Assembly: GCA_009692155.1 (NCBI GenBank)
Contig: SHZW01000001.1
Span: 62,001 to 126,000 of the forward strand
Reading direction: 5' to 3'
Source: Nitrospiraceae bacterium
GTDB lineage: Bacteria > Nitrospirota > Nitrospiria > Nitrospirales > Nitrospiraceae
Length of the DNA stretch: 64,000 bases
Positions within the stretch are counted from its first letter, which is position 1. Every line of letters begins with the position of its first letter. The position numbers and the translations under genes are program-made. Below, one piece after another: positions 31,388-33,572 of the stretch. Below the pieces are notes generated by a model. That model had not been told where the DNA came from. It saw nothing but the letters and a program-made list of their open reading frames with translations, and did no database searches.

Positions 31388-31417
31388 TTGACAATCAGGC
31401 GGACGCACAGGTATCTT
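31388..31417 (+). promoter_or_regulatory. Candidate promoter
   Basis: TTGACA (31388-31393) and, after 18 bp, TATCTT (31412-31417), just before the gene at 31428. The start codon lies about 11 bp after the -10, so the transcript would have almost no leader unless the ATG at 31470 is used. Confidence 0.45.
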
Positions 31418-31427
31418 TATATTCTGC

Positions 31428-32315
31428 ATGCTCACAATCGATCACCAATCGACATGGCGGCCCTCTTTCATGGGCAGCCTTATGCTGCTGCTCGTACTGG
31501 CGGCGTCGTGTTGGATTGCCCCTGCCTACGCCGCCGATCCGAACACTCCTGAAGCCATTATCCGTCTGATCGTCCGCGCCAACGCCGAGAAGGACATGAC
31601 GACCCTCTCGAAGTACATGGCTCACGATGCCGATGTCATCGGGTATACCATCGGCGGACGGAAATATGTCGGGTGGCCGGCCGTCGAGCGGGAAATGAAG
31701 GATGAATTCGAAGCCGTCATCAAGCTGGAAATCCCGATTTTAGAATTGAACGTGTGGCAAAGGGGCGATATCGCCTGGTTTACAATGGAACTGGACTATA
31801 TCAGCCATGTCGGCACCGGCGCCAATCTCACAAGCCTCTCGCTCCCCCTGCGCGAGACCGGAGTCCTCGAACGTCGCAATGGTCAGTGGCTCCTCCATGT
31901 CTGGCACGAATCCTCTCGCGCCAAACCGTTTTTGACAACCGCGCAAACCAATGGCGTTGCGTCTGCCCAAAAAAATTCCGTCACGTCCGAGACGCCGGAT
32001 TTAAGCGGCGGCTGGGAGATCGAAGAAGAAGATAAAGCCTATCGGGCGACGCTGGATAAGGCGGGCAACGGCACTTACACGCACAAGGGCGGGATGCTCA
32101 AAACCGCCAACTATGCGAACCGCCTCTGGCAAGGCACGTGGCAACAGCCCGAGAACGACCGCGAAGGAGGCTTTGAAGTCCTGCTGTCTGAAGATGGGAA
32201 TGAAGCAAAGGGAATCTGGTGGTACACTCGTGTTGGTACACGCAAGAACATTCCTCCTCGTGAGCACGGAGGGACTTATACCTGGAAGCGGCTGACGCCG
32301 CCGCCAGCCCATTAA
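31428..32315 (+). CDS. Secreted SnoaL-like/ketosteroid-isomerase-fold protein
   Basis: Signal peptide (MGSLMLLLVLAASCWIAPAYA, if started at 31470). Residues about 40-165 form a cone-shaped SnoaL_3-type domain (AIIRLIVRANAEKDMTTLSKYM, then GQWLLHVWHESSR). The C-terminal about 100 residues (DLSGGWEIEEEDKAYRATLD onward) form a beta-rich domain that ends in a Thr/Trp-rich strand. Substrate unknown. It lies 33 bp upstream of the copper-protein-like gene and may be co-transcribed. Confidence 0.72.
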   Translation: MLTIDHQSTWRPSFMGSLMLLLVLAASCWIAPAYAADPNTPEAIIRLIVRANAEKDMTTLSKYMAHDADVIGYTIGGRKYVGWPAVEREMKDEFEAVIKLEIPILELNVWQRGDIAWFTMELDYISHVGTGANLTSLSLPLRETGVLERRNGQWLLHVWHESSRAKPFLTTAQTNGVASAQKNSVTSETPDLSGGWEIEEEDKAYRATLDKAGNGTYTHKGGMLKTANYANRLWQGTWQQPENDREGGFEVLLSEDGNEAKGIWWYTRVGTRKNIPPREHGGTYTWKRLTPPPAH

Positions 32316-32348: not shown

Positions 32349-33359
32349 ATGAACCGCTTATTGCTCGTAACCGTATTTTCGATACTGCCAGTGGGAACAG
32401 CGCTGGCCGACGGCGGCCATCAGCACGGCGCCGCCCCGGCCGTGCCAACCTTGAAAAACCAGGTCACGACGAGGATTGCCATCACCGACGACACCGTCAC
32501 GCTGACCTTTGGTCCAATCGATCTTCCGTCTCCCCACGAAGGAGACCTGGCCGCCAGCCTGCCGAAGCATGTCTTCCAACTGCCCGAGGACACATACATG
32601 ACCGGGTACAAGTCGGAGGTCTTCACGAAAGATGGCAAAGCGCTCCCTCAGAACTACCTGCACCATATTCTGATGCTGAACAACGACAAACCCAGCGTGT
32701 CCTGCGACGGCGAGCCGTTGTTTTTCGCCGGGGCCGGGCTGGAGATGACGGAGGCCCGCTTCCCGGATGGCTATGGCGTGAAACTCGCGAAGGGCACGCA
32801 CCTCATGTCAGTCGTCGCTTTCTACCACAAGGCACCGCCAACGAAGGACGTGCTGGCCCGGTTCACCATGTACACGACCAAGAAGAACAAGTCCGTCAAG
32901 GAAATGGACGTGTACCAGGTCGGCATCAATATCGTCTGCTACAGCAAATTCGCCCAGCGCGGACCGAACCAGACGGATGAAGGCATTGAAATCAAGCCGG
33001 GCGTGTCCATCCATTCTGCGCCGCTCAAATTCAACATGGACGGCTGCGTGAAGTTCGCCTATCCCCACGGACATGACGAACTGCTGTTGATCACGCTGGA
33101 TAACAAGACAACGCAGCAGACGCTGCTGCGAACCGTGCCCGATGTCGGCAGCGATGGAACGTTCCTCGCGTTCCAGCCGCATCAGGTCTACAAAAATGCG
33201 CAGGGCTTTTCAGTCAACACGAAAGACGAGTATGAGATGACGATGGTCCATCACCATCCGATCCACAATCCCAATGTGCAGCACGGCATGGGCAATTATT
33301 TACTCTATATGACACCGGGCGAATGCCCCTCGGCCAAGGTGGTTTCCTCCGTTCAGTAA
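32349..33359 (+). CDS. Secreted protein with PHM-type copper ligand pattern
   Basis: A 336-residue protein with signal peptide (after ALA, residue 20) and a GGAG ribosome site. Its histidine/methionine layout matches the two copper sites of peptidylglycine alpha-hydroxylating monooxygenase: H105-H106 (NYLHHILML), H160 (VVAFYHK), H240-x-H242 (AYPHGHDE) and M314 (HGMGNYLLYM). In PHM the sites are H107-H108, H172, H242-x-H244 and M314. The spacing is similar. Fold and ligands are inferred from sequence; the bacterial substrate is unknown. A copper oxidoreductase, or a copper-binding relative that lost activity, both fit. Confidence 0.7.
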   Translation: MNRLLLVTVFSILPVGTALADGGHQHGAAPAVPTLKNQVTTRIAITDDTVTLTFGPIDLPSPHEGDLAASLPKHVFQLPEDTYMTGYKSEVFTKDGKALPQNYLHHILMLNNDKPSVSCDGEPLFFAGAGLEMTEARFPDGYGVKLAKGTHLMSVVAFYHKAPPTKDVLARFTMYTTKKNKSVKEMDVYQVGINIVCYSKFAQRGPNQTDEGIEIKPGVSIHSAPLKFNMDGCVKFAYPHGHDELLLITLDNKTTQQTLLRTVPDVGSDGTFLAFQPHQVYKNAQGFSVNTKDEYEMTMVHHHPIHNPNVQHGMGNYLLYMTPGECPSAKVVSSVQ

Positions 33360-33382: not shown

Positions 33383-33422
33383 AAGAGCCCTGATTTCGAA
33401 ATGGAGCCAGGGTTCTTTTTTT
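33383..33422 (+). terminator. Rho-independent terminator
   Basis: Stem AAGAGCCCTG/CAGGGTTCTT with one G-T pair, then seven T. It closes the copper-protein gene. Confidence 0.85.
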
Positions 33423-33572
33423 CATCCCAACCCATTTTCACCCTATATAACGTAGCGCCGCCCACGCGTGGATGCAATTGCGTGACCGATTTCCCGTCCC
33501 CTCATCGATGCACCCCGTTCCGCCGTTTCCGGGACTGCGCAATGCCGGCGACGCCCCCCCCTGATCGCAGGC

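Follow-up and report, generated by a model that had tools for sequence, protein, structure and literature searches.

The window, by which we mean the whole stretch of 64,000 nucleotides of Nitrospiraceae DNA that was analyzed, carries on its forward strand a gene for a PHM-like secreted protein and, upstream on the same strand and separated from it by a gap of 33 nt, a gene for a SnoaL/beta-domain protein. The features of this locus are given below in window coordinates.

31388..31417, + strand: sigma-70-like promoter match (weak), 5′ of the SnoaL gene, TTGACA-18-TATCTT, 10/12
31428..32315, + strand: partner gene, with a signal peptide, SnoaL_3 (residues 43-163; Pfam SnoaL_3 2.4e-14) and a C-terminal beta-domain of ~100 aa
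32349..33359, + strand: PHM-like secreted protein, 336 aa, predicted two jelly-roll domains (ORF, AF2 model, Foldseek)
32349..32408, + strand: predicted signal peptide, residues 1-20 (sequence; pattern recurrent in most homologues)
32661..32666, + strand: H105-H106, predicted CuH ligands (PHM H107-H108); 100% conserved, 5/5 MAFFT settings
32826..32828, + strand: H160, predicted third CuH ligand (PHM H172), with a two-residue uncertainty in register; 98% conserved
33045..33047, + strand: C233, 100% conserved; aligned with PHM C227 in the BLOSUM30 setting
33066..33074, + strand: H240-G-H242, predicted CuM ligands (PHM H242-T-H244); 100% conserved, 5/5 settings
33288..33290, + strand: M314 in GMGNYLLYM, predicted CuM thioether ligand (PHM M314); 100% conserved, 1/5 settings
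33324..33326, + strand: C326, near-invariant; aligned with PHM C334 in the BLOSUM30 setting
33383..33423, + strand: stem-loop followed by a T run, probable intrinsic terminator (-17.4 kcal/mol, z -2.89)

The open reading frame at 32349-33359 starts with ATG, ends with TAA and is translated over 336 codons, with a GGAG ribosome-binding site 5′ of the ATG. The initial annotation had described it as a secreted protein, which is borne out by a typical signal peptide ending between ALA and DGGHQHG. The mature N-terminus (DGGHQHG) is short and His-rich, a pattern common to most homologues (H24 is 88% and H26 81% conserved), and the whole protein contains 17 His and 12 Met. Because a promoter match precedes the SnoaL gene and a terminator follows the PHM-like gene, the two genes look like one transcription unit and would be co-transcribed; the chance expectation for the promoter match is one such site, and the stem-loop was absent from the output of a simple terminator pattern scan.

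Sequence searches gave no match for the PHM-like protein in Pfam, NCBIfam or PHROGs, nor in the PDB by phmmer and hmmsearch, and no similarity to PHM was detectable by BLASTP or hhalign. The search against Cu2-monooxygenase models that the initial annotation had proposed as a check came out negative: none of the homologues (0/46) matched PF01082 or PF03712, the copper type II ascorbate-dependent monooxygenases, even at E<=10, while rat PHM, the positive control for the Pfam library, scored 4.5e-46 and 5.5e-25. The silence of these profiles beside such strong scores for rat PHM argues that the protein, as modeled, is a structural relative of PHM lying outside the Pfam family. Also, no canonical Cu2-monooxygenases were found in Nitrospirota, though the control likewise gave no signal.

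An AlphaFold2 model was built on alignment A1, which contains 46 homologue sequences with 41-93% identity to the query. This model (pLDDT 80.9, pTM 0.80) is mostly beta and places all predicted ligands in confident stretches; a single-sequence model reached a pLDDT of 29 and was set aside. The 29 best PDB matches found by Foldseek, consisting of 28 PHM structures and human DBH, all extended over the full length with prob 1.00 and E from 5.3e-10 to 2.7e-7, the top one being 6ala_C (E 5.3e-10, prob 1.00, TM 0.50/0.55). The absence of two jelly-roll domains had been named beforehand as one refutation test of the initial annotation, and the predicted model does have a two-jelly-roll catalytic core with PHM topology, as in the PHM core of PAM. 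The superpositions on PHM and DBH gave moderate TM-scores (0.38-0.55) with rmsd of 6-9 A over both domains, values that a different domain angle would presumably give. The likeness to the DBH / MOXD1 type concerns the core fold (4zel, E 1.7e-7), whereas the protein described here is much shorter, lacks a DOMON or dimerisation domain and has no sequence similarity to it.

After PHM and DBH, the next fold in the PDB was PNGase at E 4.9e-5, about five orders of magnitude weaker than the best PHM match, while viral double-jelly-roll capsids appeared at E about 1e-3, and a comparison of the model with viral proteins, among which jelly rolls are numerous, gave 2.2e-5 as its best E. This ranking bears on another explanation, namely a glycan-binding or PNGase-like double-jelly-roll protein whose His and Met serve another metal (zinc, iron) or the structure, and which is not a copper protein. 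Double jelly rolls are common, and H63 and H302 are nearly invariant though they are not ligands in PHM; nevertheless, the distance between the PHM and PNGase matches and the coincidence of the conserved His and Met with the copper ligands of PHM make this explanation improbable. To our knowledge, the copper-ligand pattern of PHM is absent from the PNGase F-like family. What is shared with these enzymes is the architecture at the level of Pfam clan CL0612, in which PNGase F and PHM are clan mates (PMC8812541), and their place as next-best structural matches is the other point in favor of this explanation.

The residues H105-H106, H160, H240-x-H242 and M314 had been equated in the initial annotation with the full set of copper ligands of peptidylglycine monooxygenase (PHM). 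All six stand at the positions given, and in A1 (n = 46) H105, H106, H240, H242 and M314 are 100% conserved and H160 98% (45/46), its sole change occurring in the most divergent row, with SFYDH for AFYHK. Of the remaining His and Met, none but H63, M297, M299, H302 and the start Met reaches a similar conservation; H302, C119, C197 and C233 are also invariant, C326 is near-invariant, and many invariant motifs lie outside the predicted ligands. H302, part of an HHH run that precedes M314, might contribute to the CuM-like site or modify it; H63 and H302 are both without PHM counterpart.

The order and near spacing of the ligands resemble those of PHM. Nevertheless, this spacing pattern was reproduced in 0.4-1.2% of composition-matched shuffles at +/-10 to +/-15 residues, and about 1% is not negligible for a reader scanning many genes, so that the pattern is by itself weak evidence and the argument is carried by conservation and fold. 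The register was examined in five unconstrained MAFFT settings against the rat PHM sequence, confirmed against the PDB. The HH pair, near the start of one strand, and HxH, at the end of another, were alignable with PHM, and H107/H108 = H105/H106 and H242/H244 = H240/H242 were obtained in 5/5 settings. PHM H172 stood opposite F158 in 4/5 settings and opposite H160 in 1/5, the third CuH ligand being possibly displaced here by two residues; PHM M314 stood opposite M297 in 3/5, M314 in 1/5 and nothing in 1/5. BLOSUM30 was the sole setting to pair all six ligands, together with C227/C233, C334/C326 and N316/N316. Thus, the proposed equation is plausible throughout and secure only for HH and HxH, H160 and M314 being provisional, and the full ligand set of PHM is likely, short of proof, to be present.

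The six-ligand scheme predicted here is also that of DBH (H262, H263, H333 / H412, H414, M487; PMC4846438). A C233-C326 disulfide probably exists, comparable to C227-C334 in PHM and C390-C503 in DBH (PMC4846438); four Cys are conserved here (C119, C197, C233, C326) versus ten in PHM. Copper binding and the ligand distances are putative, and a PHM-fold copper protein, taken as the narrower claim, appears quite probable to us.

The substrate-carboxylate R240 of PHM, located two residues before HxH, is not kept, as the query reads Y238-P239-H240 and the counterpart is Y or P instead of Arg, with Y238 invariant in A1. A peptide-amidating PHM, which would hydroxylate the C-terminal glycine of exported peptides, could draw on the PHM-like fold and ligands, on N316, which is retained in nearly all homologues, and on one relative in genome G251 near a TOMM (YcaO/SagBD) peptide-maturation cluster. 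The missing Arg, and the fact that no peptide substrate or lyase gene was seen in the usual neighbourhood, make it very unlikely.

Rather than with a lyase, this bacterial protein is paired with the SnoaL/beta protein. On the same strand, 77 of the 90 family genes are preceded by the SnoaL/beta gene or by a single module of it, in 73 cases within 150 nt. The beta-domain occurs alone upstream in L073 and G009 and the SnoaL domain alone in L028, L078 and L074; each module therefore associates independently with the PHM-like gene. The C-terminal beta-domain (window 31995-32300) gave no Pfam match; it is secreted, with invariant Trp/Tyr/Arg, and further copies, alone or fused, are present in many Nitrospira genomes. 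A partner dedicated in this way hints at a pathway more than at bulk storage of copper.

The PHM-like family was found in 81/296 Nitrospirota genomes, including nearly all Nitrospiraceae. Almost all carriers belong to the Nitrospiraceae; a few fall into other families of the same order, and a single one lies elsewhere within the class. Outside Nitrospirota, a query-peptide scan of 84,980 species revealed no relatives, nor did plasmid or viral contig sets, and the open-licence papers searched gave nothing on this family of Nitrospira. The genome of the window encodes a 1145-aa NxrA which is 72-94% identical to NxrA of its order (G000:C12:35045-38479; L090:271-3708), and it measures only 1.93 Mb at 90% completeness; judged from these sequences, it is a presumptive small-genome nitrite oxidiser. 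A strict tie of the family to nitrite oxidation was rejected, as NxrA occurs without the PHM-like gene (several near-complete family f2 genomes; G161, G289) and, conversely, the PHM-like gene occurs without detected NxrA, for example in the single-contig G110.

A paralogous PHM-like clade is monophyletic (8 rows, support 97/98), and the SnoaL/beta partner is absent from its loci. In 7 of its 8 loci the paralogue stands beside a gene for a HalD-like 2OG-Fe(II) oxygenase and a 168-aa ORF, neither of which is seen in L094, and several loci also contain chlorite-dismutase-like, Rieske oxygenase, SMBP metal-binding and FGE-sulfatase genes. This variable cluster (L081:5608-11133; also L076, L080, L091, L092, L093, L095) is, going by its gene content, a putative and uncharacterised oxygenase cluster of Nitrospira, and its genes point to oxygen and redox chemistry. 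Twin FGE-sulfatase genes occur in L076, L091 and L092. Also, in G251 (L069:3443-15966), two divergent tandem PHM-like genes lie between two TonB-dependent receptor genes and adjoin the TOMM maturation cluster (SagB/SagC/SagD-like, YcaO) and a DyP-like peroxidase gene, a locus possibly concerned with peptide or copper-chelator traffic.

These neighbourhoods matter for the main rival explanation, in which the protein would carry, store or scavenge copper in the periplasm, binding it through the PHM fold and ligands without oxygen chemistry, and its His-rich N-terminus would help to capture copper for the copper enzymes of Nitrospira. It is a serious rival because the substrate arginine of PHM is missing, while all predicted ligands are conserved, and because the mature N-terminus is His-rich in most homologues; the TonB-dependent receptors flanking the tandem copies of G251 and the SMBP metal-binding gene that often neighbours the paralogue point the same way. 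Nevertheless, the numerous invariant motifs outside the ligands, the fixed SnoaL/beta partner and the oxygenase-rich setting of the paralogue are not easily accounted for by a pure carrier, and we regard this rival as somewhat less likely than an oxygenase.

We prefer the reading of an exported PHM-like dicopper protein performing O2-dependent copper redox chemistry, as an oxygenase with its partner, a proposal to which we give slightly less than an even chance. CuM chemistry requires HxH and Met. An oxygenase gains in probability because HxH and Met are invariant, because the setting of the paralogue is one of oxygen chemistry and because the partner is dedicated; the fold match, the near-universal occurrence in Nitrospiraceae and the conserved upstream neighbour also favor the proposal as a whole. 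The missing R240 and the lack of a lyase (PAL) partner in the usual neighbourhood count against it, as do the absent sequence similarity to PHM, the moderate TM-scores and the pairing of H172 and M314 in only one of the five alignments. Following this proposal, the protein would be exported to the periplasm, and its two jelly-roll domains would share the design of the PHM and dopamine beta-hydroxylase catalytic core. One copper, CuH-like, would sit in the N-terminal domain, bound by H105, H106 and probably H160, and a second, CuM-like, in the C-terminal domain, bound by H240, H242 and probably M314. O2 activated at the CuM-like site would attack a C-H bond in a small molecule or a peptide, and the CuH-like site would relay an electron from a periplasmic reductant. 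The neighbouring SnoaL/beta-domain protein would work alongside and may bind the substrate or the product.

Dicopper monooxygenases of the PHM type have been studied almost only in animals, where they oxygenate hormones by means of two copper atoms. According to a structural survey, PHM is widespread among eukaryotes, and its bacterial clan mate is PNGase F (PMC8812541). More tentatively still, we propose that the PHM/DBH dicopper monooxygenases have a bacterial branch, diverged beyond the reach of sequence methods, which forms a near-universal periplasmic enzyme of Nitrospiraceae with a SnoaL/beta partner and a substrate new to the class; another branch would lie in an oxygenase cluster of its own. 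If true, such a branch, conserved in bacteria, would widen the known history of this enzyme class and would make small, soluble copper proteins available for comparison. For nitrification, our data point to an unstudied, predicted periplasmic copper protein in nearly all Nitrospiraceae, including N. defluvii, and these carriers matter for wastewater and drinking water.
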